Source of the DNA: a bacterium
GTDB taxonomy: Archaea > Micrarchaeota > Micrarchaeia > Micrarchaeales > CABMGC01
Length of the DNA stretch: 64,000 nucleotides
Direction: 5' to 3'
NCBI GenBank assembly: GCA_021829835.1
Contig: JAKBPE010000004.1
Coordinates: 1-64,000, forward strand
Shown: positions 1 to 18,384 of the stretch, piece by piece
Layout of the letters: every line of letters begins with the position of its first letter
Position numbering within the stretch: position 1 is the stretch's first letter
The notes under the pieces: model-generated
What the model saw: the letters and a program-made list of their open reading frames with translations, nothing else
Told to the model about the DNA's origin: nothing
The model's database searches: none
Position numbers and translations under genes: made by a program

Positions 1-117
1 ACATAGGCGGTGTATAGTATTGTTTCCGCCTCCGCCTACGCCTACCACAGCAATATTAGGCTTGAAGTAATCATAATCTGCATTTGGATCTTTTTGCATT
101 GAAGGTTCATCGTACAT
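1..117 (-). CDS. ftsZ: Cell division protein FtsZ, N-terminal fragment (gene runs off the window)
   Basis: Reverse-strand translation MYDEPSMQKDPNADYDYFKPNIAVVGVGGGGNNTIHRL carries the FtsZ GTP-binding start (IAVVGVGGxGNNT). Confidence 0.8.
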   Translation of the reverse strand, partial: MYDEPSMQKDPNADYDYFKPNIAVVGVGGGGNNTIHRLC

Positions 118-223
118 TTTACCCACTGATAATGTATGGACGATAAGAATAAAATACCTTACCGAAATTAGATTTCCAGTTTTAAAATCATGGAAAGCCG
201 TGGATATATTGAAAATTTCGGGA

Positions 224-1483: not shown

Positions 1484-1500
1484 GAAATCACTTATAAACC

Positions 1501-2340
1501 TTGGCGTTTGATTATATATGTGATACCTTGCAAAGGGATTCGCTAGTAGAAAGGCTAGCATATAGGCTGATAAAAAAGCACATAGCCGGGCCGACAATGA
1601 ATTCTGCAATAGAAAAGGCACAGTGGCTCAGCAGGGAAAAGATGCTTTCTTCCATAATGTTCCTCAGCGACGCCCCTGAGAATAAAACAAAGGCGAGGTA
1701 TATAACTACAACATACACGGAGTTGATAAGAAGAATATCCAGGTTAGGACTAAAGGCAAGCGTTCATGTGCCTGTAGACAGAATAGGTGGATTTATAGAT
1801 GGAGGTTTCGCCTCTGAGAATCTTATGGACATAGTCAGTGTAGGAAATAAGGCAGGTGTTTTTGTATGGGCAGCCTTCGATCAGGATTATGGAAAGGAAA
1901 TAGAACCTGAGAGGTTTATAGGAGCAAAAGGTTTTGGAATTGCTGCACCTGAGGATATAGAGCCTGAGATAGCAGACAGGTGGAATGCCAGCGCAGTAAA
2001 GATACTCTTCAGCGCGGAGCATGAGAAGGAGAGGATTTCACGTATTAAAGAAATAAAAGCAGCTATGGAAAAAAGAAAGACTGTTGTGATAGCGTCTCCG
2101 CCAAAAAAGCTTTTGTCGGAAATATCAAATCCAAAGTTCAAGAAAGGACTGGTGTTGGAATTTGGATTAGGATACAGCAGGAGAAAGATAGCAAAACTCG
2201 CAAAGAAAGGATTCACTACAAGCATGTGCGTGCCGTTTGGAAAGGACTGGACATCTTATGCAATAAGCATGGTACCTGAGAGCAAGGCAGGATTTATAGT
2301 AGGGAATCTGCTTAAGGAAGAGGAGAAGAGGATAGTATGA
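1501..2340 (+). CDS. Proline dehydrogenase-like (PRODH TIM-barrel) protein; start uncertain
   Basis: C-terminal VPFGKDWTSYAISMVPE resembles the PRODH VPYGxxWxxYxxRRLxE signature; overlaps the next gene by ATGA. Confidence 0.6.
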   Translation: MAFDYICDTLQRDSLVERLAYRLIKKHIAGPTMNSAIEKAQWLSREKMLSSIMFLSDAPENKTKARYITTTYTELIRRISRLGLKASVHVPVDRIGGFIDGGFASENLMDIVSVGNKAGVFVWAAFDQDYGKEIEPERFIGAKGFGIAAPEDIEPEIADRWNASAVKILFSAEHEKERISRIKEIKAAMEKRKTVVIASPPKKLLSEISNPKFKKGLVLEFGLGYSRRKIAKLAKKGFTTSMCVPFGKDWTSYAISMVPESKAGFIVGNLLKEEEKRIV

Positions 2341-3305
2341 AGTCATCCAAGAAGGAGATAGTTCTTGTTACAGGAGGCACAGGCAGGCTTGGAAGACATA
2401 TCACCACTTCGCTGATAAATAAAGGAATGGAGGTAAGGGTGCTTGTTCAGACCAAGGAGGACACTGTACGCGCAAAGGCAGGAAGCATACCATACCTTGG
2501 AGACATCACTGATGAGAAGGCAATAGAAAAAGCATGCGAAGGCGCAGATACAGTGATACATCTTGCAGCGATGGTAAGCCAGTACAAGACAGGGCTTAAC
2601 GAAATAATGAGGATAAATACGCTTGGAACCAGAAAACTTGCGGAGACAGCTAAGGAATCTGGGGTCAAGAAAATAATATTCGCCAGCACAATCAATGTTT
2701 ATGGAAGAGTTCGGAAGGAGGAGCTTTCTGAAGAATCGAAATTGATGCCTACTGACAGTTATGGCCAAAGCAAGCTGCTTGCCGAAAAAGAGATAATAAA
2801 TTCAGGCTTGGATTATACTATACTTAGAATGGCCACAATATATGGCCCTGGATTTGAGAGCTCCTTTCTTAAGGTCTTCAAAGCAGTGAAAGAAGGCAAG
2901 GCATTTATAATAGGAAACGGAAAGAACAACCTCTCGCTTGTGCATATAGCGGATGTGGTCAGGGCATTTGAGCTTGTCCTTGAGAATAGGGAGAAGAGCC
3001 GGAATAAGATATATAACATAACTGATGGAAGGATATACACCCAGAAGTATCTTCTAACCCTGGCAGCGAATACACTGGGAGTTGAGGCTCCTGAAAAGCA
3101 CGTGAATACGCTTGTGGCTAGAATGGTCGCAAAGGCCAGAGGTTTGGATACCGACGAATTAAGGTTCATAACCAGCGACAGGAAGATAGACATATCGAAA
3201 GCCAGGAAGGAACTGGGGTTCAAACCTACCGAGAGTGTAGAATCGGGCGCAGGATATCTGCTTAGTAAGTTCAATATTTCAGACAGGAGAAAGGTGGATA
3301 AATGA
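2337..3305 (+). CDS. NAD-dependent epimerase/dehydratase (extended SDR)
   Basis: VTGGTGRLGRHI Rossmann motif, YGQSKLLAE (YxxxK), HIADVVRA. Confidence 0.85.
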   Translation: MKSSKKEIVLVTGGTGRLGRHITTSLINKGMEVRVLVQTKEDTVRAKAGSIPYLGDITDEKAIEKACEGADTVIHLAAMVSQYKTGLNEIMRINTLGTRKLAETAKESGVKKIIFASTINVYGRVRKEELSEESKLMPTDSYGQSKLLAEKEIINSGLDYTILRMATIYGPGFESSFLKVFKAVKEGKAFIIGNGKNNLSLVHIADVVRAFELVLENREKSRNKIYNITDGRIYTQKYLLTLAANTLGVEAPEKHVNTLVARMVAKARGLDTDELRFITSDRKIDISKARKELGFKPTESVESGAGYLLSKFNISDRRKVDK

Positions 3306-4084
3306 AAATAGGAAAAATAGAGAAATATATACAGGATAACCTTGACAAAGAAGGAGCGCTGCTCTTCGTGCTTATCGACCCTGTTGATTACAAAGATTCG
3401 GATGATGCGGTAGCTACAGCGTACAACGCGGTAGAGGGAGGAGCGGACATAGTCCTTATAGGGGGAAGTACTGGCGCTCAGGGAGAACTTCTTGAGGAAA
3501 CCACCAAGAGGATATCGGAAAAAATAAATGTGCCGGTAGTCCTCTTTCCTGGGAATATAGCCACAGTAACTAAGTATGCTGATGCTGTTTATTTCATGTC
3601 GTTGCTAAATGCAAGGAATCCTTACTGGATAACGCAGGCGCAGATGCTTTCAGCTCCTCTTGTAAAGTCGCTCAATATAGAACCTCTTCCCGTAGGATAC
3701 ATAGTAGTACAGCCTGGGGGAACAGTGGGTTGGGTAGGCGATGCCAACATGATACCACGAGAGAAGCCAAAAATAGCCGCGTCTCTTGCTCTTGCTGGAG
3801 AATTTTTAGGCAATAGGATCATAGTCACAGATGCCGGATCAAATCCACAACTGCAGGGATACTCTGGCGTGCCTCTCGATATGATAAGAGAAGTCAGAAG
3901 AGTAATATCCGTTCCTTATATTGTAGCAGGAGGCATCAAGACAGTCGACGATGCCAGGAATGTTATAAAAAACGGGGGAGACATAATACAGGTAGGCACT
4001 GCCATAGAGAAATCAGGAAACCCTAAAGAAAGAACTCTTGCCCTTTCCAAAGCCATAAAAGAAGAGGGAAAAAGGAGAAGATGA
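3302..4084 (+). CDS. Geranylgeranylglyceryl phosphate synthase
   Basis: LIDPVDY, GGADIVLIGGSTG, PVVLFPGN, YIVVQPGGTVGWVGDA, PYIVAGGI match archaeal GGGPS/PcrB-like proteins. Confidence 0.92.
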   Translation: MKIGKIEKYIQDNLDKEGALLFVLIDPVDYKDSDDAVATAYNAVEGGADIVLIGGSTGAQGELLEETTKRISEKINVPVVLFPGNIATVTKYADAVYFMSLLNARNPYWITQAQMLSAPLVKSLNIEPLPVGYIVVQPGGTVGWVGDANMIPREKPKIAASLALAGEFLGNRIIVTDAGSNPQLQGYSGVPLDMIREVRRVISVPYIVAGGIKTVDDARNVIKNGGDIIQVGTAIEKSGNPKERTLALSKAIKEEGKRRR

Positions 4085-4122
4085 TCTCCTGGTTTTGTCT
4101 TGTGTTTGAATGAGCAATAGAT

Positions 4123-5238
4123 ATGCGAGAGATAACTTCAATAGAGATAAGCAGGACATTGGATGAGCTTAGAGGAAAACTTGAAGGAAGCCGCCTAAGG
4201 AAATTCTATGATTTTGGAGAGGGCTCTTTTAGGATACTTTTTTACAAGAAGGAAGGCAATGTACAGATATACTGCAAACTTCTTGGAACATTTAATGAAA
4301 CAAAATTCGTAGAGCCTGCTGAAGAAGCTTCAACTTTTGCAATGGGAATCAGGAAGAGAATAGAGAACTCCAGAGTTACATCACTGAAGCAGCATGATTC
4401 CGACAGGATGATAATTATCGAGTTCAGTGCGGATGGTTACAGGCTGATAATCGAGATGTTTGGAAAGGGAAACGTAATACTCATAAATAGCAGCGGAGTT
4501 ATAGAGCAGTGCTATAAAACAATCAGATACAGGGATAGAAGCGTTGCTCCTGGAAACCACTATGAGTTTCCGAAAGGCAATGTTCTTCCCATAGGTAAAC
4601 TTGACAAAGATACATTCAGGAAGATTCTTGACGATGCCCCGCCAGGTAAGAAGCTCATAAGGCATCTTTCAGATATCATGAACATAGGCCCGATATATCT
4701 TGAGGATATTATAAGGAGGAGCGGGCTTGAACCTGGAGTTGATGCTTTGGCTCTGGATGAAAATTCAAAGAATATGCTGGTCAGCCAGATGCTTCTTTTC
4801 AGTGAAAGGGAAAAGGCGGAGAAACCCAGAATCTATCTTGAAGAAGGCTCGGCAAAGGATTATTCCATTGTAGATGTAGTTAGATACAAAGGGCTGGAAA
4901 GCAGAGAATATGAAAACCTCAATGAACTGCTTGATGATTTCTGGATCGAGCCTCGGATGGAAAACGCCGATACTGCAATGAATTCTGAAAAGAAGAAGAT
5001 AGAGTCAAGCATGGAAGCACAGAAGCAGTTGATAAAGAGCGCAATGGCAGAATCGGATTACTATTCAAAAGGAGGGATGAAGATATTTGAGAAAATGCAG
5101 GAGATAAATATGCTTATAGAGTATCTAAAAAAGAACAGGAATGCCAAACTGGACGAAGTGCGCAGAGTATTTCCACACATGAATATAAAAGAACTTGAAT
5201 TAAAAAACAAGACGGTGAAGATAGAGATAGAAGATTGA
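4123..5238 (+). CDS. NFACT-N (FbpA/Rqc2-like) protein, apparently lacking NFACT-R
   Basis: N-terminal MREITSIEISRTLDELRGKLEGSRLRKFYDFG..., GNVILINSSGVI; ends at 371 aa after a coiled-coil stretch. Confidence 0.8.
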   Translation: MREITSIEISRTLDELRGKLEGSRLRKFYDFGEGSFRILFYKKEGNVQIYCKLLGTFNETKFVEPAEEASTFAMGIRKRIENSRVTSLKQHDSDRMIIIEFSADGYRLIIEMFGKGNVILINSSGVIEQCYKTIRYRDRSVAPGNHYEFPKGNVLPIGKLDKDTFRKILDDAPPGKKLIRHLSDIMNIGPIYLEDIIRRSGLEPGVDALALDENSKNMLVSQMLLFSEREKAEKPRIYLEEGSAKDYSIVDVVRYKGLESREYENLNELLDDFWIEPRMENADTAMNSEKKKIESSMEAQKQLIKSAMAESDYYSKGGMKIFEKMQEINMLIEYLKKNRNAKLDEVRRVFPHMNIKELELKNKTVKIEIED

Positions 5239-5256
5239 TTGCTGGATGATGGATAT

Positions 5257-6147
5257 ATGATTGAGATAACAATACTCGGATCGTCAGGATCTTCTCCTGC
5301 CAAAGATAGAAATCTTCCTTCTGTTGCATTGCGTAGGGAAGGTGACGTATTTCTTTTTGACTGTGGCGAAGGCACCCAGATGCAGATGATTAAGTATGGT
5401 ATAAACGCTTACAGGATAAAAGCCATTTTTGTAAGCCATTCCCACGGAGACCACATAATAGGCATCGCAGGCCTTGTCAGGACGCTGGCGATGAGCAACA
5501 GGGATAAGCCTCTTGGGATATTTGTGCCGAAAGGCCAGGAGAAGATAATAAAGGCACTTGTTATGTTTGACAAGGCAATGATAGGCTACGACATAAATAT
5601 AATAGGAATAGGAAAGGGATTGGCATACACAGGCAAGGATTTCAGAATTTCGGCCTTCAGGCTTAACCACACTATAAACGCACTTGGGTATATTTTCCAA
5701 GAGAATGATAAAAAGAATTTCATAATGGAAAGATGTAAGAAACTGGGAATTGAGGGGAGGATGTTCTCTGAACTCCAGAAAAATGGCAGGATAAAATTAG
5801 GCAAAAGGATCATTTATGCTAAAGATCTTCTAGAGGTTAAACCAGGAAAGAAGATAGTATATGCGATGGATACCAGGCCGACTGCTGAGACAGTAAAGGC
5901 CGCAAAAGATGCCGACCTGCTTATACATGAGTCTTCATATACTGAAGAGTTCGGAAGGCTTGCGCGTGAGAGAAAGCATTCCACAGCTTTGGAAGCGGCG
6001 GAGATTGCAAAAAAAGCGAATGTGAAGAGGCTGGTTTTAACACATATAAGCACAAGATTTAAAACTGCGAAGCCACTAATAGATGAAGCAAGGAAAGTCT
6101 TCAAGGAAGTTTCAGTTGCAGAAGACGGAGAAAGAATAATAGTATGA
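5257..6147 (+). CDS. rnz: Ribonuclease Z
   Basis: MIEITILGSSGSSPAKDRNLPS, FDCGEGTQMQ, FVSHSHGDHIIGIAGL, YAMDTRP, LTHISTR. Confidence 0.93.
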   Translation: MIEITILGSSGSSPAKDRNLPSVALRREGDVFLFDCGEGTQMQMIKYGINAYRIKAIFVSHSHGDHIIGIAGLVRTLAMSNRDKPLGIFVPKGQEKIIKALVMFDKAMIGYDINIIGIGKGLAYTGKDFRISAFRLNHTINALGYIFQENDKKNFIMERCKKLGIEGRMFSELQKNGRIKLGKRIIYAKDLLEVKPGKKIVYAMDTRPTAETVKAAKDADLLIHESSYTEEFGRLARERKHSTALEAAEIAKKANVKRLVLTHISTRFKTAKPLIDEARKVFKEVSVAEDGERIIV

Positions 6148-6148
6148 A

Positions 6149-6219
6149 GAGGGTATCGTCTAGTGGTAGGACGACAGATTGACATTCTGTAAGCAGGAGT
6201 TCGATTCTCCTTACCCTCA
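6149..6219 (+). tRNA. tRNA-Val (anticodon GAC)
   Basis: Hand fold: acceptor GAGGGTA/TACCCTC, anticodon stem ACAGA/TCTGT with loop TTGACAT, T arm AGGAG-TTCGATT-CTCCT, discriminator A. Confidence 0.93.
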
Positions 6220-6282
6220 TTCACCTTGAAGACCGATTAATACAGGTATATCTTTATATATCTTTTCTTTCTAGATATAAGC

Positions 6283-7491
6283 ATGACATACGCTGAAGCT
6301 GCAACAAAAAGAAGCGCAAAACTAATCGATGCCATAGCTTTAGATCCTAACATACCGAAAAGTAACAAGAAACTGGCTGCTGAGTATGCGGACTTTATGC
6401 GCGCAAGAGGCCTGACGGAAAGATCGGTATCCAAAAATCTCTATTGCCTCTCCACCTTTTTCAAGTTCGCAGGAAAGAAAGACATATTGAAGCTGACAAA
6501 GGAAGAGGTTACTAGGGCCGTTGCCGGGATTGAGGGCAGCGGATACTCCACGAAGACCAAACAAGGCATACTTATAGCGATAAAGTCGCTGTATAAACAC
6601 TTCCTCGGCAATGACGACCTCTATCCAGACCAGGTGCGCTGGATAAAAACGACAATGAAAGGCTCCAAACGAGTCCTTCCGGAGGACATACTTGTCGAAC
6701 AAGACATACTAAAGATGATAAAGGCCTCGAACAGTGTAAGGGACAAGGCCATAATAGCACTTCTCTTTGACAGTGGAGTCAGGATCGGAGAGCTTCTGAA
6801 TATGAAAGCTAGGGATGTCAATCTCAAGACTGAACCCGTTCATGTAACCGTGGATGGTAAAACAGGCATGCGCCAAATCCCGATAACATTCAGCGCGAAA
6901 TACCTTGCGCTGTATTTGGACATGCAGACGGAAAGGAAGCCAGGAGATTACCTATGGAACATGAAGGGCAGCTGGTCCAATTCAAATGCGCCCTTGGACA
7001 GGGCAGGCGTGGCCAAGATGCTGAACCTCGTGGCGAAGAAGGCAGGGATAGAGAAACGAGTTAATCCACACTCTTTCAGGCACGCACGAGCCACTCATTA
7101 TGCCAACAAACTCACAGAACAGCAGCTCAAGGTCTTTTTCGGCTGGACTGGAAGCAGCAATATGGCAAGCACATACGTGCATTTGAGTGGGAGGGACATA
7201 GATAATGCGATACTCCAGGCAAATGGAATGAAACCCGTAGAAGTAAACGAGGAGTCCAAACTCATAGAGAAGACATGTCCAAGATGCCAGAATACCAATA
7301 CAGTCAGCTCAACCTATTGCAGCAGATGCGGTTCCGCCCTTGACATTTCAATAGCGATTAGAGATGAGGAGAGGCGCAAGACTGTCGAAGAGGCTGCAGT
7401 CGCTGAGATGGAGAAGAAGTTTCAGAAAAATGAACTCGCAAAGAAGATAAAGGGAAAAAGGGCTTCAACAAGTCAGGTTAATAAACCTTAA
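6283..7491 (+). CDS. Tyrosine recombinase/integrase with C-terminal zinc ribbon
   Basis: RIGELLNMKARDV, HSFRHARATHYA, TYVHLSGRDID catalytic segments; CPRCQ...CSRCG at the C-terminus; 63 nt after tRNA-Val. Confidence 0.93.
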   Translation: MTYAEAATKRSAKLIDAIALDPNIPKSNKKLAAEYADFMRARGLTERSVSKNLYCLSTFFKFAGKKDILKLTKEEVTRAVAGIEGSGYSTKTKQGILIAIKSLYKHFLGNDDLYPDQVRWIKTTMKGSKRVLPEDILVEQDILKMIKASNSVRDKAIIALLFDSGVRIGELLNMKARDVNLKTEPVHVTVDGKTGMRQIPITFSAKYLALYLDMQTERKPGDYLWNMKGSWSNSNAPLDRAGVAKMLNLVAKKAGIEKRVNPHSFRHARATHYANKLTEQQLKVFFGWTGSSNMASTYVHLSGRDIDNAILQANGMKPVEVNEESKLIEKTCPRCQNTNTVSSTYCSRCGSALDISIAIRDEERRKTVEEAAVAEMEKKFQKNELAKKIKGKRASTSQVNKP

Positions 7492-7506
7492 TTTCGTGGT
7501 ATTATC

Positions 7507-8346
7507 ATGCACGGACGCCAAAAAGTCTTATTGTACCTTGTCCTGCAGCTTAAGAAGCGCGAGATCCACATTTCCAAGACCAGCCTCAACAAGTTTCTAT
7601 TTGTGATGGGAAAGGAGTCAGAGATATCAGAACAAGTCCGATTTTACAGTTTTTATCCATATCTTTATGGTCCGTTTTCAAGCCAGCTTAATCTGGACAT
7701 AGCAGACTTGCAGAGCAGGGCATTCCTTGACGAAAAACTGGACTTGAAGATAAGCGAGGAGGAAACAAGTCGTATGGTCAACAGAAAGACCATTGAAATT
7801 GTGGATAATTTGCTGGCTAGAAGAATGGGCGAAAACATAGTGTCGTACGTATATGGAACCTATCCAGAATATACAAGCAGAAGCCGTTTGAGAAGGCATC
7901 CGCAAACCAAGAAGGAGCCTGGCATATTTTCCATAGGATATGAAGGCCACAACATAGATTCGTTCCTTGATCTGCTCATACAGAACGAGATAGAGACAGT
8001 AGCAGACCTAAGACATAATCCATTTAGCATGAATATGGTCTTTACAAAGTCAAGGCTTTCAGGTTACCTTGGAAAGATAGGGATAAATTACCTCCACATA
8101 CCTGAATTAGGAATAGATGGTAGATACAGGAAGAACCTCAATGATGATGAAGATTACCAGAAACTTTTCGCCTTTTACTCCAGTGAGATACTTCCGAAAC
8201 AGGAAGATAAAGTTAAGCGGATTGTTGAAATGGGTAAGACGAATAGGGTGGCAATGCTTTGTTTTGAGCATGACAAGGACCACTGCCATAGGGGAGTCGT
8301 AAGCAAGGAACTTGAGAAGGACTCGGTCATGGTGAAACACTTATGA
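7507..8346 (+). CDS. DUF488-family protein with an N-terminal phage-associated (Panacea/DUF4065-like) domain
   Basis: C-terminal SIGYEGHNIDSFLDLLIQNEIETVADLRHNPFSMN...LCFEHDKDHCHRGVV is DUF488; N-terminal KVLLYLVLQLKKREIHISKTSLNKFLF...YGPFS is Panacea-like. Confidence 0.75.
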   Translation: MHGRQKVLLYLVLQLKKREIHISKTSLNKFLFVMGKESEISEQVRFYSFYPYLYGPFSSQLNLDIADLQSRAFLDEKLDLKISEEETSRMVNRKTIEIVDNLLARRMGENIVSYVYGTYPEYTSRSRLRRHPQTKKEPGIFSIGYEGHNIDSFLDLLIQNEIETVADLRHNPFSMNMVFTKSRLSGYLGKIGINYLHIPELGIDGRYRKNLNDDEDYQKLFAFYSSEILPKQEDKVKRIVEMGKTNRVAMLCFEHDKDHCHRGVVSKELEKDSVMVKHL

Positions 8347-9101
8347 AGGAACGGCTTCTTGTTCTTGCCAAGGCGGTTCCCGAGATCAGCAGCAAGTACG
8401 AGAGTCTTGTCTGCGTTGCAGGAATAACCGACTCTGGGGAATGGAGAAGGATTTATCCGATTCCCTGGAACATATTCTGGGGAACAAGTAGCAGGAATTT
8501 CAAGAAGAAGTACTGGATTGAATATGAGACTGCCGGTTCTGGAGATTACAGACATGAGAGTATGAAGATAAAACCTGAAACAATAAAACCTATCGGAGAG
8601 GCAAGCTTTAGTGAAATAGAAAGTATGTTGAAAGACAGACTTACAACAATAGAAGAATTGGAAGAACTTGGACCTAAGAAGACTTCTCTCGGTGTCGTAG
8701 AACCCAAGGAATTGATTGACTTCGTGCCTACCTCTAACAAGCACTATGAGGAACTTACGCAGATGTCCAAGCAGAAGGACCTTTCCGGAGGCAAGGCAGT
8801 AAAACTAGACATACCGGAGTACAAATATCGCTACATATTCAAGGATGTGATAGGAGAGAAGAGGAACCATGAGAATCTTTGCGAAGACTGGGAAGTTGGA
8901 GAACTCTATAGAAACTGCAAACGTTATCTCGAACAGGGAAAATACAAGAATGAGGAGGAATTACACCAGAAGGTTAAGGAGAAGATGCTTACTAAGATAA
9001 CCAAGAACGGACATTTCTATTTCATAGTAGGATCACACTTTATATTTCCTACATATATGATAGTTGGAGTCGTTTATCCTAGAAAAGAAGATATTGAATA
9101 G
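8343..9101 (+). CDS. Uncharacterised protein paired with DUF488 ('LVCVAGITDSGEWRRIYPIPW' family)
   Basis: 252 aa ORF, 4-nt ATGA overlap with the DUF488 gene; distinctive LVCxAGIT..GEW.RIYPIPW N-terminus. Confidence 0.7.
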   Translation: MKERLLVLAKAVPEISSKYESLVCVAGITDSGEWRRIYPIPWNIFWGTSSRNFKKKYWIEYETAGSGDYRHESMKIKPETIKPIGEASFSEIESMLKDRLTTIEELEELGPKKTSLGVVEPKELIDFVPTSNKHYEELTQMSKQKDLSGGKAVKLDIPEYKYRYIFKDVIGEKRNHENLCEDWEVGELYRNCKRYLEQGKYKNEEELHQKVKEKMLTKITKNGHFYFIVGSHFIFPTYMIVGVVYPRKEDIE

Positions 9102-9141
9102 GTGCGCATGTCCGAATACCATATATTGAAGTAAAAGCTTA

Positions 9142-9190
9142 TATACTTGAGTATAAGATTTAATGGCCGTAGGAAGAGATTTATATCTCT
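9142..9190. promoter_or_regulatory. Putative promoter/operator of the divergent TFB gene: two short palindromes
   Basis: TATACT-tg-AGTATA (9142-9155) and AGAGAT-ttat-ATCTCT (9175-9190); the second spans a TATA-like box ~25 nt before ATG 9209. Confidence 0.45.
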
Positions 9191-9208
9191 TCTAAACCAA
9201 ATCCAATT

Positions 9209-10075
9209 ATGGGGGAGAAGGCTGGGGAGCCTAACCCAAGGTTATGCATTGCCTGTGGGAAAGGCCAGATAGTGCTGGATGGACTACTTGGCGAGTATTA
9301 CTGCGGAATCTGCGGCTTGGTAGCCGAAGAGGGCGTAGTGGATTTCTCTGATGTCTCATTCCTTTTTGATGAGGACAATCTATCATCACAATCTCCTACG
9401 AGCTTCACAAAAGTAAACAAAGGACTGGGCACGCTTCTGGATGCGAAGGATGCCATCTTTTCAGGCATAGATAACAAGAACTTATTAAGAGAACCGATGG
9501 AAAATGAGGAGAGAAACTTCTCAAAGGCACTTCACTATTTACACATTGTCTGGGATGGACTATCGCTTCCTGGAGATTTGAGGAGCAGCTCCGCGATTCT
9601 GTATCGGAAATGCATAAAGAGGGGCATAACTAACGGGAGAAAGATGGAGGTCATGGCCCTTGCCACAGCCTCAATGATGTGCGAAGAGGCTGGAATAACT
9701 CGTAGTACAGATAAGTTGATTGAAGCATTCGAATTAAAGTCAAACGAGATAACTGCATGTACGAAGGCAATTAAAGAAGGGTTTGGAGTAATTGAGAAAC
9801 ACCAGCAACTTAGAACCTTATTATCTGATGGCCTCATCAAGGTTGAAGCTGCGGAGGAATTGAAGAATAAGGCCTCCAGGATGATGGAAGCCGTAATAAT
9901 GAACAAGCTCTATTCAAGGAAGAAGCCGGAGGTGGTGGTGATGGTGGTTCTGATGCCGGTCCCGATGGCTGAGGGGCTTAGGCTAGCCAGGCTCGGCCAA
10001 ACAGACAATCCAACCACAAGGCGTGCCAGAGGGCTCGCTCCGCAATCGCTCGCCAGCTCGGCACGCCGCTTGTAG
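9209..10075 (+). CDS. Divergent transcription initiation factor B-like protein; C-terminal frame uncertain
   Basis: CIACGKGQIVLDGLLGEYYCGICGLVAEEG zinc ribbon plus helical cyclin-like region. Another frame gives LFKEEAGGGGDGGSDAGPDG* ending at 9972. Confidence 0.7.
   Translation: MGEKAGEPNPRLCIACGKGQIVLDGLLGEYYCGICGLVAEEGVVDFSDVSFLFDEDNLSSQSPTSFTKVNKGLGTLLDAKDAIFSGIDNKNLLREPMENEERNFSKALHYLHIVWDGLSLPGDLRSSSAILYRKCIKRGITNGRKMEVMALATASMMCEEAGITRSTDKLIEAFELKSNEITACTKAIKEGFGVIEKHQQLRTLLSDGLIKVEAAEELKNKASRMMEAVIMNKLYSRKKPEVVVMVVLMPVPMAEGLRLARLGQTDNPTTRRARGLAPQSLASSARRL
10016..10073. repeat. GC-rich inverted repeat
   Basis: ACAAGGCGTGCC (10016-10027) pairs with GGCACGCC-(gc)-TTGT (10060-10073). 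Confidence 0.6.
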
Positions 10076-10190
10076 GTTTACATAGATTATAAGGTTCCCG
10101 AAGAAGTAAACACAATGTTTCAGAGATAAAAATAGAAGAAAGGTTTACCCTAAAATAAAAAATGGTGAACCTTTCTTTGGCTGTGGGGGC

Positions 10191-10424
10191 TTATATGCCT
10201 CCAAAACCACTGGTATTTTCGAATAGGTCGTAGATGAACATGCCCAGACTTACCGTACCTATGATCCCCGCCACCGCTAGGATTATGACCACCACAGCAT
10301 AGAAGAGGTCCATGTTTATGCCTGCTGCGGCAAATGCGCCTGCCAACATGCACAAAACTGCGATTACTATCGCCAGTTTTAATGTTTCTATTCCGTCTTC
10401 GACCACTTTCCCATATGGATTCAT
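10191..10424 (-). CDS. Small protein with two predicted transmembrane helices
   Basis: 77 aa; LAIVIAVLCMLAGAFAAAG and FYAVVVIILAVAGIIGTVSLGMFIY segments. Confidence 0.55.
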   Translation of the reverse strand: MNPYGKVVEDGIETLKLAIVIAVLCMLAGAFAAAGINMDLFYAVVVIILAVAGIIGTVSLGMFIYDLFENTSGFGGI

Positions 10425-10566
10425 TTTCTCGCCTTTATATTTTAGGTGGCTCTTTTCCTATTTATTGCTTTTGTACGAAAAAATTCTGGAGGCAATACTT
10501 TTTATTTTTAAAAGTTCTAACTATTAATCTACGGATCTGAGGTATATGTTATCGACCATACAAAGC

Positions 10567-10634
10567 GAATCGGCTTTGACGACGGGAGAACCTTACCCCC
10601 AAAGGATAGCATTTGATAGCGTTTGTCATGGTTT
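10567..10634 (+). repeat. att-like direct repeat R1 (core CCTTACCCcCA at 10591-10601)
   Basis: Aligns ungapped with R3 at 54/68 positions (hand count); core matches the tRNA-Val 3' end at 10/11. Confidence 0.75.
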
Positions 10635-10693
10635 TACATGCCTCCTAGAAGGCTTTTATATGTGAACAGAGCCACCTATCTTGGAAGGATAGA

Positions 10694-11908
10694 ATGAAAT
10701 TAAGCAAGTTGCCATACTCACAGGCTATACTTCCACCAGATAGCTGGAGGGAGATGACTTTCGCTGAACTAGTGAGAAAGGCACATCTGGCTTATGACAT
10801 GAGCCAAGGGATTTGCTTCATACCTGCTGTGCTTACCAGAACTTATCGAAGAATGGATTCTATCATACGTGAGGCCTGCCTGGAAGAGAGTTTTTCTGAG
10901 GTTCAGGTACCCTTACTAATGAGAACCGAACTTGTGAGAAAGAGTGGTAAATATGAAAAATATGGAAGCGAGTTCTTTGAAGTTGGAAGGGATTCCAGGT
11001 ATATTTTATCCGGAACAACCGAAGAGATGTTTTTGCAATATCTGTCTCGAGGAGGCCTAGAATCTTATAATCAGCTTCCAATCAGGGCGTTCTATTTTGG
11101 TGAGATATTCAGAAATATAAAAAGGCCTGAAGGATTGTACAAAGGCAGGGAATTCTATGGCCATTATGCCTTGTCTCTGGATGCAGATAGTGAAGGTTAT
11201 ATTAAGAGCCTTGCTGCCTTTGAGGCTATGTGCGAGAAGGTATGGAGACTACTCGGTATACAGAATGTAGTATATAAGATAAAGAGCAATGACGGACTTG
11301 CTGTAGAATACCTTTCAGAAAGCCTTTCAGGAGACAGAACTTTTGATAAGAGTGTTGTTATAAAACGTGGTGAAGGCCAGCATTCTGACAAAACATTATC
11401 TTCTGACAAAAAGCTAAGTAGTCTAGCCATGGCGTATATTTTCAGTGAGGCAGATAATTTTGGACTAGCCTTTACCAACTCAGAAGGAAGAAAAGCTATT
11501 CCTGTTGTAGGTACCTATGCGATAGGCATTCAGAGGTGTCTTGCTACAATGTTTGACAACCTTAGAGATGAATCAGGAATCAATCTGCCTAAACAGGTAA
11601 GACCTTTTGATATAGCAATTATACCAATTGATCCAAACAATCAGAGTCAGAACGAGATTCTTGAAAGGCTTTATATATCATTATCAAAGGCAGGCTTATC
11701 TGTCGCATTGGATGATAGACGCTTGATGCTCTCCGAAAGACTTAGATTTGCAGACTTTGTAGGGATTCCATACAGGATGGTGTTTGGTGTAAGAGATATG
11801 AAAAGGCAGGTAATTGAAATTAGAGAGAGGGGAGATCGAGACAAATTTGACTATATATCACTTACAGAAGCGGTGGAATCTGTCAAAAAATTAGTGCGAG
11901 AAGAATAA
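10694..11908 (+). CDS. Class II prolyl-tRNA synthetase-like protein (no editing insertion)
   Basis: SGTTEEMFLQ, FYFGEIFRNIKRPEGLYKGREFY, GTYAIGIQRCLATM (motif 3), C-terminal PFDIAIIPID...DDR...ERLRFADFVGIPYRMVFG anticodon-binding-like domain; 404 aa. Confidence 0.8.
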   Translation: MKLSKLPYSQAILPPDSWREMTFAELVRKAHLAYDMSQGICFIPAVLTRTYRRMDSIIREACLEESFSEVQVPLLMRTELVRKSGKYEKYGSEFFEVGRDSRYILSGTTEEMFLQYLSRGGLESYNQLPIRAFYFGEIFRNIKRPEGLYKGREFYGHYALSLDADSEGYIKSLAAFEAMCEKVWRLLGIQNVVYKIKSNDGLAVEYLSESLSGDRTFDKSVVIKRGEGQHSDKTLSSDKKLSSLAMAYIFSEADNFGLAFTNSEGRKAIPVVGTYAIGIQRCLATMFDNLRDESGINLPKQVRPFDIAIIPIDPNNQSQNEILERLYISLSKAGLSVALDDRRLMLSERLRFADFVGIPYRMVFGVRDMKRQVIEIRERGDRDKFDYISLTEAVESVKKLVREE

Positions 11909-12082
11909 ACATGGAATCAACCTATAAAAGAGCATTAATGGGAGTTTACGGTGCGCATAAACCTAGAAATTTAGATATTAGAAAGGACATAAATCTCGCA
12001 GTTACTTGTCTATTAATAGTGTAAATGCAGATAATGTATTTATATATAATAGAACTACTAAGATATTAGATCGGGTGGAAGT

Positions 12083-13213
12083 ATGAATTCATTATATTTG
12101 CCGAATGAAGATCATACGCTAGGGTATGCTGGGAATAAGATTTTCAAACCTATAAAAAGCATATCTAATGACATTAGTATAGACTTGTTCAGAAGTAGGT
12201 TGAAGGAACTTCATAACGACGAAATGTGGGATCATATCTCAAGAATAAATCACACAATTAATATGGCTACTCACGAGTATTTCGATAAATTGGGTAGCCT
12301 TTTCGTTTTATTGCCACTCACCACAAGAATGATCTCATCTCCTGGGGCATTGTATGGTAAGGAAAAACTTGATTATACGCAGGACACGGTTCCCGTAAAG
12401 TTAAACTGGTTTGAACTCAAAAAAGATATCTTCCTATCAGAATCTTCTCAGATATATCTTGAGCTTTATCTTGCTATGAAGAACATAAAAGGAGTTTATG
12501 CAGTCTATAATTCCTTTAGAAAGGAGCCTTCAGATTCAACTCACCTTTCAGAATTCCACCATATTGAATATGAAGGAAAGGTATCTCAGAAGGAAAATAA
12601 AAAAGTAATAATAGATCTGATAGGAAAAATTATCGACAAACTTCTGAAATTAAACGCAGATGACTTATCATTCTTCATCTCAGATGGAGATATATACTTC
12701 CTTAAAGATTTCGCTAAAAACAGAAGAATAACTGAGATTACATTTGAGCAGGCTTTGGATGTACTTTATAGCAAAACAAAGAATAATAAGTACAAGGAAT
12801 TCACCAGCAAGAATTTTGGGGCTTGGGAGGAAGTCAAACTAACAAGTGAAACTGGGAACATCACTGCGATCTCAGAATTTCCTCTTTATGAGGTAGCGTT
12901 TTATCACGCTCCTATTGATAATGATGGAAAATCAGTTGCAGATAATACTGATTTTATATGGCCTTATTACAGGGAATTTGTAGGCTCAGGACATAGAGTA
13001 AGATCTTTGGACGAGTTGCTTGTAAAGGCTAAAAAGTTTAACCTTCCTGAGCAGGATTATAGGAATTATCTGGCATCACGCCAGTTTGATGATTATTCAG
13101 AGACTTCAGGATTCGGATTAGGCTGGGAGAGATTTTTGCAGGGACTGCTAAAGATGCCCTTTATATATTCTGCTTCTGCATTCCCCAGAGTTCATAATAC
13201 AATAGAGCCGTAG
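12083..13213 (+). CDS. AsnRS/AspRS-like class IIb catalytic core without the N-terminal OB anticodon domain
   Basis: YNSFRKEPSDSTHLSEFHHIEYEG (motif 2) and SGFGLGWERFLQGLLKMPFIYSASAFPR (motif 3). Confidence 0.8.
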   Translation: MNSLYLPNEDHTLGYAGNKIFKPIKSISNDISIDLFRSRLKELHNDEMWDHISRINHTINMATHEYFDKLGSLFVLLPLTTRMISSPGALYGKEKLDYTQDTVPVKLNWFELKKDIFLSESSQIYLELYLAMKNIKGVYAVYNSFRKEPSDSTHLSEFHHIEYEGKVSQKENKKVIIDLIGKIIDKLLKLNADDLSFFISDGDIYFLKDFAKNRRITEITFEQALDVLYSKTKNNKYKEFTSKNFGAWEEVKLTSETGNITAISEFPLYEVAFYHAPIDNDGKSVADNTDFIWPYYREFVGSGHRVRSLDELLVKAKKFNLPEQDYRNYLASRQFDDYSETSGFGLGWERFLQGLLKMPFIYSASAFPRVHNTIEP

Positions 13214-13218
13214 ATTGG

Positions 13219-14052
13219 ATGGATATCAGAAATCTCAAAGTTGAAGACATTCAGAAGATGAATTACAATGAGTTAATAGGTATTGTTAAAGAGACGAACA
13301 GGCCGCCTGGAGGAATTAAAACAATAATGGAAGTTTTGAATACTGTCAGTCTGGATGAAAACTCCAAAATACTCGATATAGGCACAAGCACAGGATTTAC
13401 AGCTATAGAATTTGCAAGACTGACAAAATGCAATGTTGTAGGTATAGATATAAATCAAATGTCTTTGGATGAAGCAAAGAAAAGAGCCGAAAGATTAAAG
13501 TTAAACACCGCATCATTTTTAAAAACTGATGCGACAAATCTTCCATTTAAAGAAAATGAATTTGATCTTGTTTTTTGTGGGAATGTGACATCTTTAATTC
13601 CTAATAGAAAGAAGGCATTTTCGGAGTATATTCGTGTTTTGAAGGAAGGAGGTTTCCTTGTAGCTACACCTATGTATTATAGAAGAGATCCGCCGTCTCT
13701 TTTGATTGAGAAGATTTCTTCTGCCATAAGAACAGAGATTAAAATAGACCGAAAAGGATATTGGTTATCATTTTTCTCAGATAATAATCTACAACACATA
13801 TCGATTAAAGATTTTGTTTTTGACACTATAAATTCAGATAGGATAGATCTATTTATCAATAATATCCTAAGCAGAGAACATCTGGGAGATCTTTCAGAGC
13901 AGGTTATGAAACTCTTAAAAGAAAAATATGGCAATTATATATCGCTCTTTTCAGAGAATCTCAGATATATGGGTTACTCTCTTATCATTCTAAGGAAAAA
14001 GGATTCTGAGATTGATGAGGAATTATTTACATCAACTGCTTGTGACTCCTGA
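13219..14052 (+). CDS. Class I SAM-dependent methyltransferase
   Basis: ILDIGTSTGFTAIEFARL, VVGIDIN, LPFKENEFDLVFCGNV; 3' end overlaps the convergent peptidase gene by 21 bp. Confidence 0.85.
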   Translation: MDIRNLKVEDIQKMNYNELIGIVKETNRPPGGIKTIMEVLNTVSLDENSKILDIGTSTGFTAIEFARLTKCNVVGIDINQMSLDEAKKRAERLKLNTASFLKTDATNLPFKENEFDLVFCGNVTSLIPNRKKAFSEYIRVLKEGGFLVATPMYYRRDPPSLLIEKISSAIRTEIKIDRKGYWLSFFSDNNLQHISIKDFVFDTINSDRIDLFINNILSREHLGDLSEQVMKLLKEKYGNYISLFSENLRYMGYSLIILRKKDSEIDEELFTSTACDS

Positions 14053-15069
14053 CTCGGATAACTCAAATGAATTAGAGTGTGAGTCGATAAGAGCTCTTAC
14101 CCCCAACGGTAAGGTCAATATGGGATCCGTATGCCCTATATCTGCACCATATAGAATTGGTATGTTATAAGTTACAGTGTTCTCCAACAGAATCTTTTTC
14201 AATTCGGTTACCTCCTCGGCGCTATAATGTGTAGGTCTTCCTACTATGAGTCCCTTTATCTGAGAAAGTGTTCCATACAAATCGAGATCTGTGAGTAGTG
14301 AATCGACCTCAGATACAGGTTCACCTTTTGTAAAATCGTGGCTCTCTGGAATATCTAAAAACATGATTGCATTTTTATGATTAGGCCAGAATTTTGTGCC
14401 TTTAAGATGCATTATTGAAGGTAGGCAGCCGCCCATAAGAATTCCTTCCGCTTTTCCTTGCCTTAGCCATTCATAACCGTTATTTTTTATCATCTTCCTT
14501 GATCTTTCCAGATCAAGTCTTTGCATCCAGTCGAGTATTTCATCTGTCCATTTATCAGAAGGCTTTATCTTGCCAACAGGCTTGGAGGAGCATACCGCTT
14601 TATTGAAATAATCAATTGTGTAAGGAAGGGGTTTTGGTTGTTCTGCAAACTGCGTCATTATACAGGGGCCATAAAAAGTCATTAGATTTGACTGTGTATG
14701 AAGAGCATAATGTAGTACAGATATGTCAGAATACCCACAAAATATCTTTGGATTATCCTTTATAGTACTAAAATCAAGGTATTTCAATGTTTGATTGGCA
14801 GTATACCCTCCTATATTACAGATTATTGCCTTGATCTCATCGTCATTGAAAGCCTCATTGATGTCTTTTGCCCTGTTCTTGGCAGTATCTGAGCTGTGGC
14901 CCTTTGAACTTGTTGCTGTTGGAAATAATTTGATCTTATAGCCCTCATTCCTAAGATACTCTGAGGCATTTTGTAAGCGATGTGGCACGAAGGCCGAGAA
15001 ACCCGAAGATGGTGCAACTACACCTATTGTATCCCCTTTTTCAAGCAGACTCGGCTTTGATAAAGACAT
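14032..15069 (-). CDS. MccF-like S66 serine peptidase / LD-carboxypeptidase family
   Basis: LLEKGDTIGVVAPSSG, NIGGYTANQTLKYLDF, KIFCGYSDISVLHYAL, MTFYGP. Start set at the internal Met (MSLSKPSLLEKGD). Confidence 0.85.
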   Translation of the reverse strand: MSLSKPSLLEKGDTIGVVAPSSGFSAFVPHRLQNASEYLRNEGYKIKLFPTATSSKGHSSDTAKNRAKDINEAFNDDEIKAIICNIGGYTANQTLKYLDFSTIKDNPKIFCGYSDISVLHYALHTQSNLMTFYGPCIMTQFAEQPKPLPYTIDYFNKAVCSSKPVGKIKPSDKWTDEILDWMQRLDLERSRKMIKNNGYEWLRQGKAEGILMGGCLPSIMHLKGTKFWPNHKNAIMFLDIPESHDFTKGEPVSEVDSLLTDLDLYGTLSQIKGLIVGRPTHYSAEEVTELKKILLENTVTYNIPILYGADIGHTDPILTLPLGVRALIDSHSNSFELSESGVTSS

Positions 15070-15109
15070 AAATATGAAGATTGACCTCAATATATATAAA
15101 ATAAGCTGG

Positions 15110-17143
15110 GTGCTTAATCTGGACAATCCCGATGTACTTGTTAAGGGAAATGGTATGTTCGTTGATGACATTACATTTCCCGAAATGTTACATATGGCAG
15201 TGATAAGAAGCCCTTATGGCAGAGCAAGAATTTTGAGTATTAGCGGCGGCCTCAATGCAGCAGAATTTAATCCAGCTCTTGCTACGGTGCTAGAAACTGC
15301 AGGTAAGGGAAGAGAAGCGTATATCCAACATGTTTTTGCGAATGGTAGTGTTAACTATTATGGTGAACCAGTCGCTGCAGTATTTGGAAATAGCATTTAC
15401 GAAGCCCTAGACAATTCAGAAAAAGTTAGAGTAGAGTATGATCCTATGAAGGCTATTGTAAGCATAGATGATGCTCTTATTAGAGAACCGTTGTATCCAG
15501 GACTAAATAATAACATAATGGTGGAGAATTATGTAGGGCAGAATTTTGAAATGTTAGATGCACCGGTGATGATAAAGGACACATTCTTTAATGATAGAAT
15601 ATCCCCAAATCCTATAGAAACAAGAGGGCTTATCGCATCTTATAAGTCAGGTCTATTGGATATTTGGATGTCTGTTCAGGCGGCTTCTAGTTTGAAGATA
15701 GACATATGCAAAACACTAGATTTGGATCCAGACAAAGTGAGGATAATCCAAGCCGATACCGGAGGTGGCTTCGGTTCAAAAGGGGGAATTATGTATCCAG
15801 AGTATGCTATGGCAATATACGCCTCAATGAAATCAGGAAAGCCAGTCAAATGGATAGAAACAAGGGAAGAGCATCTTAAAGCGACATGTCAAGGGCGTGG
15901 CGTGCGTGGAGAGATGACACTTTATGCTAATGAAAATGGAAGGGTACTGGGAATAAAAGGGACTGTGACTGTAGATGGGGGCGCATATGCAGGAGGAATG
16001 GCAGAATTTGCACCTGCACATATCGTAAGGCAACTTACAGGCGTGTATCAGATTGAGAATGCCTATTTTAGAGCAGTAAGTGTTTATACGAATAAAGTAC
16101 CTCATGGACCTTATAGGGGTGCAGGTATGCCTGAAGCCTCTTTCTTTATAGAAAGAATGATGGACAGGCTGGCAGACAAACTGAATATGGACCCAATTGA
16201 GATTAGATTAATTAATGCGACAAAAACTGAGTTTAGATCTCCTCTGGGCATGGAGATTGGGCCCTCAGCTCGATTCGTAGCTGAAGCTGCAAAGGAATTT
16301 GATTATGATCGACTTAGAAATACAAGTACGGGATTCTCTTGTTTTGTACTTGTCCCCCAAACAGATTTTGGAGAAAGTGCACGAATAAAGATAGAAAACG
16401 GAAAAGTAAATGTCTGGTTAGGTTCAAATACACATGGACAGAGACATGAGGTTGTTGTGAAGCGATTACTTAGGGAGGAGCTCGAAGTTAGTGAAGATAT
16501 AATAACTTTGCTCAGAGGAGACACGAGCAAAATTAGAGATGGTTTTGGGAGTGGAGGGAGCAGATCGATTATGATGGGAGGCACAGCATTGATATTTGCA
16601 GCAAGAAAAATCAAGGACCAAATAAGGAAGACTTCGGGTAAATACAGTAGTGATGTTTTACTTTCCAGCAATTTTGATGTTTCCTATAATTATTCACATG
16701 AAGGAGAAATAAACTCTTTTGGTGCAAACTTTGCTAAGGTGAGTATAGATGAATCTGGAGGTATTAAAGTCGAAGAAGTTAAGTCTTATTATGATGTTGG
16801 AAGACTAATCGATCCTGAAGGCGCAAAAGCACAGGTTATGGGAGGAGTTTTGCAAGGAATAGGTCAGGTCTTATCTGAAAGAATTATATATGATGAAAAT
16901 GGACAATTACTAACTTCAGGTATAGCTGAAGCAGGATTACTGAGAGCAGATAATACACCTAGATTTGTTGTAAATTTTGTTGAGAATCCTTCTTGCCTTC
17001 CACACGGAGCTAAAGGATTAGGTGAATCTCCAGCTATAGGAACGCCGACTGCAGTAGTAAGAGCGATAGAAAATGCCATTAATGACAAAATAAGCAACAC
17101 CCCGATAAGCCTAAAACAGATAAGGAAATTGAAATCAGGCTGA
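15110..17143 (+). CDS. Xanthine dehydrogenase/CO dehydrogenase-type molybdenum hydroxylase large subunit (orphan); start ambiguous (ATG 15074 or GTG 15110)
   Basis: GGGFGSKGG, GPYRGAGMPEASFFIERMMDRLA, AQVMGGVLQGIGQ, AKGLGESPAIGTPTAV. Confidence 0.85.
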   Translation: MLNLDNPDVLVKGNGMFVDDITFPEMLHMAVIRSPYGRARILSISGGLNAAEFNPALATVLETAGKGREAYIQHVFANGSVNYYGEPVAAVFGNSIYEALDNSEKVRVEYDPMKAIVSIDDALIREPLYPGLNNNIMVENYVGQNFEMLDAPVMIKDTFFNDRISPNPIETRGLIASYKSGLLDIWMSVQAASSLKIDICKTLDLDPDKVRIIQADTGGGFGSKGGIMYPEYAMAIYASMKSGKPVKWIETREEHLKATCQGRGVRGEMTLYANENGRVLGIKGTVTVDGGAYAGGMAEFAPAHIVRQLTGVYQIENAYFRAVSVYTNKVPHGPYRGAGMPEASFFIERMMDRLADKLNMDPIEIRLINATKTEFRSPLGMEIGPSARFVAEAAKEFDYDRLRNTSTGFSCFVLVPQTDFGESARIKIENGKVNVWLGSNTHGQRHEVVVKRLLREELEVSEDIITLLRGDTSKIRDGFGSGGSRSIMMGGTALIFAARKIKDQIRKTSGKYSSDVLLSSNFDVSYNYSHEGEINSFGANFAKVSIDESGGIKVEEVKSYYDVGRLIDPEGAKAQVMGGVLQGIGQVLSERIIYDENGQLLTSGIAEAGLLRADNTPRFVVNFVENPSCLPHGAKGLGESPAIGTPTAVVRAIENAINDKISNTPISLKQIRKLKSG

Positions 17144-17248
17144 TAAATCTTGGTATAGACCATCATTCTATTTTGTCTATCATAGTGATATTCTTCGATA
17201 TCATTTACTATAATTTGTAGTCATTTCATATCATTTTACATCGAAAAT

Positions 17249-17316
17249 GATTCGGCCTTTACCGCCTAAGAACCTTACCCTCACTTGTATGCATTTGTCT
17301 GCTTGTGACAGTGTTT
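17249..17316 (+). repeat. att-like direct repeat R2 (core CCTTACCCTCA at 17273-17283)
   Basis: 11/11 match to the tRNA-Val 3' end; ungapped 49/68 identity to R3, strongest in the left half. Confidence 0.75.
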
Positions 17317-17455
17317 GGTATAGAAAGTGAAGTAGATAGATATAGATGATTGACATTTATCTACCTAACTAATATATGGCACTTGTAGTCAAAAAGGATA
17401 ATATCAAAGCAGCTATGTTACCAACCAGGAACTCCCTTATTTGCTAGCATTCTGG

Positions 17456-17471
17456 ATCGAAAATAATTCGG
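17456..17471 (+). repeat. Partial copy of the sequence leading into R2
   Basis: ATCGAAAATAATTCGG vs ATCGAAAATGATTCGG at 17240-17255 (15/16). Confidence 0.5.
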
Positions 17472-17531
17472 GGTTCTTGGCTTGGAAGAAGTCAGGAAGG
17501 TTTAAAATTCCGAATGTGCAATATATATTTG

Positions 17532-17753
17532 ATGAAGGACATGCAGACGCAGCAGATGCTTGAAAGACAGATTAACACTAAGCTTGACAGGATTGCGAAA
17601 ATGCTGAGCATAGTGCTTGAGAAGATGGACGAGGCCGAGCCAGACAAGAAGCTCATCAGGAGGATAGCGAAGGAATGGAGGGAGATTGATTCTGGAAAAG
17701 TGAAGGTACATCATTACAAGAACCTTGCGGAGTTCAAGAGAGCAATAAGCTGA
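17532..17753 (+). CDS. Putative antitoxin of a RelBE-type toxin-antitoxin pair
   Basis: Small charged protein (MKDMQTQQMLERQINTKLDRIAKML...) directly upstream of a RelE-like gene. Confidence 0.65.
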   Translation: MKDMQTQQMLERQINTKLDRIAKMLSIVLEKMDEAEPDKKLIRRIAKEWREIDSGKVKVHHYKNLAEFKRAIS

Positions 17754-17761
17754 CTGATCCT

Positions 17762-18013
17762 ATGATATACAAGCCTGCCTTCACCGAGAAGATGCAGGAA
17801 GAGCTTAGACACAGAAAGGAACGTGATAGGACAACCTACGAACAAGTGATGAAGAAGATAGCGCAGATTTTGGAGAACCCAAAGATAGGCAAGCCGATGC
17901 GCAGGCCGCTAACTGGCATACGAAGGTTTCACGTTGGCTCTTTGGTAGTAACATATAGGATAGACGAGCAAGCCCATGAAGTCATCTTTACTTCCTTTGA
18001 GCACCATGAATAA
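17762..18013 (+). CDS. RelE/ParE-family toxin
   Basis: FTEKMQEELRHRKERDRTTYEQVMKKIAQILENPKIGKPMRRPLTGIRRFHVGSLVVTYRIDEQAHEVIFTSFEHHE. Confidence 0.85.
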   Translation: MIYKPAFTEKMQEELRHRKERDRTTYEQVMKKIAQILENPKIGKPMRRPLTGIRRFHVGSLVVTYRIDEQAHEVIFTSFEHHE

Positions 18014-18068
18014 GCTAAAGAGCTGAATTGTCCATTTTGAGCCGAATTGATGCGTTCTCCCCAAAAAG

Positions 18069-18136
18069 GATTCGGCCTTGACGGCCTGGGAGCCTTACCC
18101 TCAAGTGGTAGTATTTGTTAGCGTTTGTTATGGTTT
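18069..18136 (+). repeat. att-like direct repeat R3 (core CCTTACCCTCA at 18093-18103)
   Basis: 11/11 match to the tRNA-Val 3' end; best-preserved copy. Confidence 0.75.
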
Positions 18137-18384
18137 GATACACTTCCTGGATTTGCACATGAACACATTAAAAATCAAAAACCATCGAGGTAAAATCCGG
18201 ATGCAGCGGCTTGTCTGATATTTTGTGCATGAGGTAGTTTGATTGATTCGTTATTCTTTTCCACTCCATTTGGGATCGTAAAAAGGTATTATAATTTTTA
18301 TTTAAATTTGAAGATTGTAGATAATTATGAAATAATGGAAACTGGCTAGTCTGTTTTTTATAGTTTCCCGTGCTTAGACTGTTG

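Follow-up and report, generated by a model that had tools for sequence, protein, structure and literature searches.

The tRNA-Val locus and its repeats

The window analysed here, a stretch of 64,000 nucleotides (nt) covering positions 1 to 64,000 of contig JAKBPE010000004.1 (assembly GCA_021829835.1) from an archaeon of the phylum Micrarchaeota, contains a tRNA-Val(GAC) gene with a tRNase Z gene directly upstream and, behind it, a variable region that runs from the tRNA 3′ end to about position 18276. This region holds three gene modules, M1, M2, and M3, bounded by attachment-site (att)-like repeats, R1 to R3, that carry the end of the tRNA gene. The repeat array and its tRNA-derived core are real and have clear limits, and they belong to a pattern that extends across the phylum. 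The sites and borders are listed below, with G002 denoting a genome of the same genus.

6149–6219, plus strand: tRNA-Val(GAC), the putative target gene (ARAGORN, Rfam); its last 11 nt (6209–6219, CCTTACCCTCA) are the attachment core (attL)
10562–10638, plus strand: R1, att-like site; core 10591–10601, one mismatch
17244–17320, plus strand: R2, att-like site; core 17273–17283
18064–18140, plus strand: R3, att-like site; core 18093–18103; core and right arm match the G002 tRNA-Val flank at 93% identity
18141–18276, no strand: variable sequence past R3, missing from G002; chromosomal synteny is back at 18277, before a P-type ATPase gene

R1 to R3 are 77 nt long, lie on the same strand, and share 64%–75% ungapped identity; the three same-orientation 68-bp repeats with the tRNA-Val end that had been proposed in an earlier, sequence-only reading fall inside them. 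The core, CCTTACCCYCA, equals the final 11 nt of tRNA-Val(GAC) and is found in its exact form, CCTTACCCTCA, in R2 and R3; R1 carries CCTTACCCCCA, with the single mismatch that the same reading had reported. Across the 992,079-base assembly, this core occurs four times in the forward direction and never in reverse, and all four copies lie at the tRNA-Val locus. A weight-matrix scan of both strands of the 64 kb scores R1 to R3 at 86–94 bits and the next best position at 12 bits. The earlier reading saw no further copies in the core regions, and the repeat is indeed confined to the locus rather than dispersed genome-wide.

The left arms of R1 to R3 match one another at 19–23 of 30 positions and the right arms at 16–24 of 30, whereas these arms and the tRNA flanks are alike at merely 4–5 of 30; the repeats are thus sites with arms of their own and not tRNA fragments. 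Each R site is a tRNA-derived core set in an element-specific frame, as in attachment sites. R1 to R3 fold no better than shuffled DNA (DNA folding z-scores of −0.3 to 1.2, both strands), and tRNAs are the sole Rfam matches. Because homology with the sister genome returns only at 18277, about 170 nt past R3 also belong to the variable region.

Gene content of the three modules

The genes of the modules and a half-site within M3 are as follows (aa, amino acids; PDB, Protein Data Bank).

6283–7491, plus strand: M1, XerA-like tyrosine recombinase/integrase, 402 aa, with a C-terminal zinc-ribbon-like motif (Pfam PF00589, 3e-22; PDB 4a8e XerA, 8e-21; NCBIfam XerA-type below cutoff)
7507–8346, plus strand: M1, DUF488 protein, PDC-M19A of a candidate defence pair (PADLOC PDLC04505, 3.6e-70; Pfam DUF488)
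8343–9101, plus strand: M1, PDC-M19B, partner in the candidate defence pair (PADLOC PDLC04508, 2.6e-39)
9209–10075, plus strand: M1, TFIIB-like protein (NCBIfam PRK00423, 1.7e-21, below cutoff; Pfam TFIIB just below cutoff)
10694–11908, plus strand: M2, prolyl-tRNA synthetase (ProRS)-like class II synthetase, 404 aa (Pfam tRNA-synt_2b, HGTP_anticodon; NCBIfam ProRS below cutoff)
12083–13213, plus strand: M2, protein with an asparaginyl-tRNA synthetase (AsnRS)-like catalytic domain
13219–14052, plus strand: M2, S-adenosylmethionine methyltransferase
14032–15171, minus strand: M2, S66 peptidase, MccF/MccC-immunity-like (Pfam PF02016/PF17676; PDB MccC-family, 6e-63; MccF, 6e-44)
15074–17143, plus strand: M2, molybdopterin-binding oxidoreductase subunit, glyceraldehyde/CO dehydrogenase alpha-like
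17439–17471, plus strand: M3, half-site, a left arm without a core; also upstream of the toxin-antitoxin (TA) pair in G004, a second genome of the genus
17532–17753, plus strand: M3, antitoxin-like open reading frame (ORF), 73 aa
17762–18013, plus strand: M3, YafQ/RelE-type toxin, 83 aa (Pfam ParE_toxin, 1.7e-8; NCBIfam YafQ family below cutoff; 89% identical in G004)

M1 has a guanine-cytosine (GC) content of 42%–45%. Its integrase gene, anticipated as a tyrosine recombinase just past the tRNA, starts 64 nt behind tRNA-Val in an open frame; archaeal XerA is the closest PDB match, and the homology spans the conserved catalytic regions. A small hydrophobic ORF (10187–10424, minus strand), under the length cutoff of the ORF list, lies between the TFIIB-like gene and R1. 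Two more integrase relatives are present in the same genome, at G000:C19:66702-67829 (just past the end of the window) and G000:C1:304-1335, one of them directly behind tRNA-Asp(GTC). The viral contigs searched yielded no integrase relative, no M1 circle junction, and no R-site pattern.

M2 occupies 6.7 kb between R1 and R2, has no integrase, and differs from M1 in composition (GC 34%–41%). A search of 60 relatives gave no hit to its ProRS-like protein at E ≤ 1e-30. Within 10694–15171, the module joins ProRS-like and AsnRS-like proteins with an S66 peptidase near MccF/MccC immunity proteins, a gene set that, judged by its sequence, looks like one for resistance to, or making of, tRNA-synthetase-targeting inhibitors. 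A possible link between the oxidoreductase and tRNA-Val in another genome (G043, about 6 kb from the same tRNA) was dropped, as no core copies were found there. M3, the 0.82 kb between R2 and R3, consists of one TA pair and likewise has no integrase.

The same locus in genomes of the genus

The sequence-only reading had named a shared region lacking module differences as evidence against it; relatives instead differ exactly at the sites. G002 (87% nt identity) is syntenic with the window on both flanks, over positions 1–6219 and from 18277 onward, with an interval of 2.96 kb between them versus 12.06 kb in the window, and M1 is missing. Right after its tRNA core comes the R3 right arm, with 93% identity across the 44 nt of core and arm, followed by about 100 nt like the M2 tail (window 17107–17210, 80%) and a degenerate core, TTTATCCTCA, corresponding to a degenerate R2; further on lie a transposase-like ORF and a 459-aa ORF.

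G004 is more distant (67% nt in the tRNA flank), and the order behind its tRNA-Val is a 258-aa ORF, the core CCTTACCCTCA, a broken ORF, the TA pair, and the core CCTTACTCTCA. It shares only the TA module of M3 with the window (82% nt, against 67% for the flank), and its chromosomal neighbour past the array differs. No integrase relatives were detected at the tRNA-Val loci of G002 or G004. As the module differences in both genomes sit at cores, modules evidently come and go there.

Integrases and tRNA-end copies across the phylum

Relatives of the integrase are present in 99 of 303 genomes of the phylum and, within the same order, 32 of the 44 copies examined lie behind a tRNA gene by our own count, with Val, Glu, Gly, Asp, Gln, Ala, Thr, Ser, Asn, His, Arg, and Pro tRNAs all represented. 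The last 10–11 nt of integrase-linked tRNAs recur downstream 23 times on the same strand and once on the opposite strand; the 23 falls to 19 when the double counting of two arrays on one contig is removed. For other tRNAs, downstream copies of the 3′ end number nine on the same strand and none on the opposite, and no copies were found upstream in 345 kb. Arrays of two or three cores each exist at eight loci. At one of these (G091), the arms assort across the cores (left A, B, A; right X, Y, Y; 27–29 of 30 positions identical), the pattern that site-specific recombination at the core would leave.

Small modules without an integrase are also found in relatives. Those at tRNA-Val in G004 measure 1.0 and 1.3 kb; others are found at tRNA-Glu in G055 (1.6 kb, AAA_14/DUF4143), tRNA-Arg and tRNA-Thr in G039 (0.9 and 1.0 kb), tRNA-Leu in G091 (1.3 kb, together with one of 11 kb), tRNA-Leu in G150 (2.2 kb, Fic), and tRNA-Thr(TGT) in G040 (1.0 kb). 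At tRNA-Cys in G028 (L221:3372-5200, G028:C30), a 0.80-kb TA pair in reverse orientation and a 0.96-kb PNP_UDP_1 phosphorylase-family gene are each closed by CTCTCCCGGCT, with no integrase at the locus. An att-bounded integrase-less module stands beside an integrase-bearing one in G055, G039, G091, and G150, as M2 and M3 do in the window. TA pairs related to that of M3 lie behind Val, Cys, Leu, and Gln tRNAs (G004, G028, G047, G049, G248) and share 72%–89% aa identity where complete, the G248 copy being split and about 75% identical; second exact cores around the pairs at tRNA-Leu, tRNA-Val, and tRNA-Gln (G047, G049, G248) were sought and not found. The sites, the module borders, the presence and absence of modules in relatives, and the recurrence at other tRNAs are all direct observations.

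Several further features were seen in these genomes. Outside the genus, the TA pair has its closest relative (82% aa; L217, G053:C22) about 300 nt downstream of the apparent C-terminus of another tyrosine recombinase, identified by eye. In G150, a 25,989-bp unit with an integrase relative is present in three exact tandem copies (G150:C1:341001-418977, L181-L185), either through recent tandem integration or because a circular element was misassembled as a concatemer. A mimic of the tRNA T arm, often TCGACGACA plus GGTTCAAATCC, occurs within about 25 nt past several tRNAs (e.g., L036:1379-1415, L221:9372-9410, L222:8104-8140) and is perhaps the element-side arm of an integrase site. Many draft contigs of relatives (e.g., L084, L088, L092, L105) end a few hundred bases behind the integrase, as would be expected if the locus varies between strains or has several copies.

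Probable serial integration at tRNA 3′ ends

The locus is very probably the product of serial site-specific integration, by XerA-like tyrosine recombinases, at the tRNA-Val 3′ end, with accretion of integrase-less modules; relatives across the phylum lend good support to tandem accretion of elements with one site specificity, one of the two readings first proposed from the window. The 3′ end of tRNA-Val(GAC) would be the target for elements that use such recombinases, with recombination taking place at the 11-bp core, that is, the tRNA end comprising the acceptor strand and its junction with the T stem. Since the core equals the tRNA end, the tRNA stays whole and each insertion adds one core copy at the far end. 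R1 to R3 would then be far-end sites, each with its own arms, and every new insertion would push the older far site outward, so that at least three modules are now stacked. M1, absent from the sister genome, is the module beside the tRNA, with the integrase, the candidate defence pair, and the TFIIB-like gene, and M2 and M3 may be of a cis-mobilisable type, with their sites kept and the integrase needed from elsewhere. M1, M2, and M3 resemble one another in their left arms, which argues for a shared specificity. We infer that this integrase family acts on the sites, and likewise the order of events and a lasting ability of the integrase-less modules to move.

Several observations weigh against this explanation. 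Simple serial integration predicts a first right arm like the others, and in the window this is not so: the M1 right arm, at the tRNA, is unlike the right arms of R1 to R3 (4–5 of 30), and the resident integrase may therefore not have moved M2 and M3, or not alone. The first right arm does resemble the others in G150 (20 of 30) and weakly in G091 (14 of 30). G002 is not a clean empty site, given its M2-tail remnant, degenerate R2, and transposase; every genome compared at the tRNA-Val locus is a draft assembly, and the analysis revealed neither an excised circle nor an empty and a filled version of the locus in one strain. The right arm past R3 is like that of R1 (24 of 30), and such an arm lies directly behind the tRNA in G002; it may thus be old chromosomal flank, or a fourth module may have decayed between R3 and 18277.

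Alternative explanations

The integrase-less modules may have been moved in trans, may be what is left of full elements, or both. It is conceivable, if somewhat doubtful, that M2 and M3 were formerly autonomous, had their integrases deleted, and are now immobile. Degenerate sites are indeed present (the half-site at 17439 and the G002 core), and the M2 tail in G002 is eroded; several small modules, however, are compact, with complete genes, intact cores on either side, and no integrase remnant noted, and the TA module is more alike between genomes than the flanks are.

A platform resembling an integron, in which an integrase beside the tRNA would take up small modules that have no integrase of their own, and release them again, at the tRNA-derived site, with the array as an adaptive store, is unlikely. 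Such modules (about 0.8–2.2 kb, one or two genes) do recur at Val, Cys, Glu, Arg, Thr, and Leu tRNAs and include TA, PNP_UDP_1 phosphorylase, AAA_14/DUF4143, and Fic genes; related TA pairs stand behind four tRNA types, and the left arms of M1 to M3 are alike. Yet arrays hold three sites at most, some (G004, G028) have no integrase, and the core differs by tRNA, so a cassette cannot pass freely between tRNAs. The R sites, moreover, have no fold, the M1 right arm is unlike the others, and no far core could be recognised for the TA copies at Leu, Gln, and second Val tRNAs. The broader proposal appears quite improbable: that the phylum as a whole keeps integron-like stores on tRNA genes, where integrases acting at tRNA ends would take up and release cassettes of one or two genes (toxin-antitoxin, phosphorylase, ATPase, Fic) in trans at an 11-bp tRNA-derived core on many tRNAs, unseen by standard island finders.

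A single composite element that entered once and had its attachment site duplicated internally through unequal recombination would explain why the R1 and R3 arms are alike (left 20 of 30, right 24 of 30), and is nonetheless very unlikely: the modules differ in GC content, the R copies are merely 64%–75% identical, and relatives carry modules separately, G004 and G002 having already weakened this account. That the repeat is a dispersed terminator, miniature inverted-repeat transposable element, or regulatory motif matching the tRNA by chance has next to no probability, being refuted by its uniqueness to the locus genome-wide, with no conserved fold and a phylum-wide same-strand excess of tRNA-end copies.

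Significance and comparison with known systems

Small-genome archaea are often viewed as reduced and static, and here about one-third of the sampled genomes of one phylum carry integrase relatives, with defence-like and toxin-antitoxin modules accumulating at tRNA 3′ ends, which act as docking points. The 11-bp core offers a simple search key and a testable set of substrates for a family of archaeal integrases that is still uncharacterised.

In streptococci and other bacteria, tandem accretion of integrative and conjugative elements, integrative and mobilisable elements, and cis-mobilisable elements stacks integrase-less, att-bounded modules with an integrase-bearing neighbour. The present locus differs in that no conjugation or mobilisation genes were identified among the genes scanned there, and in its very small modules.

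The ssrA islands of Dehalococcoides stand in tandem behind an RNA gene, in a region that varies between strains. Copies of the 3′ end of that gene, 20 bp long, mark the border of each island, and 15 islands, which have no integration module, have been called possible cis-mobilizable elements (PMC3146451). The tandem logic, the copies of an RNA-gene end, and the integrase-less members are shared with the arrays described here. In Dehalococcoides, however, the target is the tmRNA gene, the recombinases are treated alongside the Ccr (serine) family, a single gene has many sites, and the cargo is larger and comprises reductive dehalogenases (PMC3146451); the present arrays have a tyrosine recombinase, an 11-bp core, many tRNA isotypes, modules down to 0.8 kb, and archaeal hosts.

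With the tDNA islands catalogued by Islander, the locus shares a tyrosine integrase, a tRNA 3′ fragment, and a crossover at the junction of T stem and acceptor stem (PMC4383910). For Islander, a tandem array qualifies only when an integrase is present in each of its members, and candidates shorter than 2 kb are discarded (PMC4383910); with these filters, modules such as M3 would be missed, and the share of the mobile gene pool that they make up is probably undercounted.

Archaeal integrons, defined by IntI and folded attC sites, share with the locus an integrase and several same-orientation sites bounding gene modules (PMC9668308), and differ in that the core here is tRNA-derived and changes with the tRNA. 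An identity as an integron was rejected: the integrase is not IntI (TIGR02249, 55.6 bits against a cutoff of 265), R1 to R3 have no attC-like single-strand fold, and there is no constant attI beside intI, the target being a tRNA end that differs by locus.

Among archaeal elements, tandem integration at one locus is known according to the passages found, and class II (pNOB8-type/XerA-related) elements likewise have an intact XerA-related integrase beside a tRNA; those passages describe whole elements in tandem and mention neither small integrase-less modules nor DPANN hosts (PMC8371274, PMC6563490). In the part of the literature that was searched, texts on Micrarchaeota/DPANN integrases and tRNA genes contain no account of such arrays. 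Accretion at tRNA ends is thus already known, and the small integrase-less modules, the many tRNA isotypes, and the archaeal host would be the variant features of the system described here.

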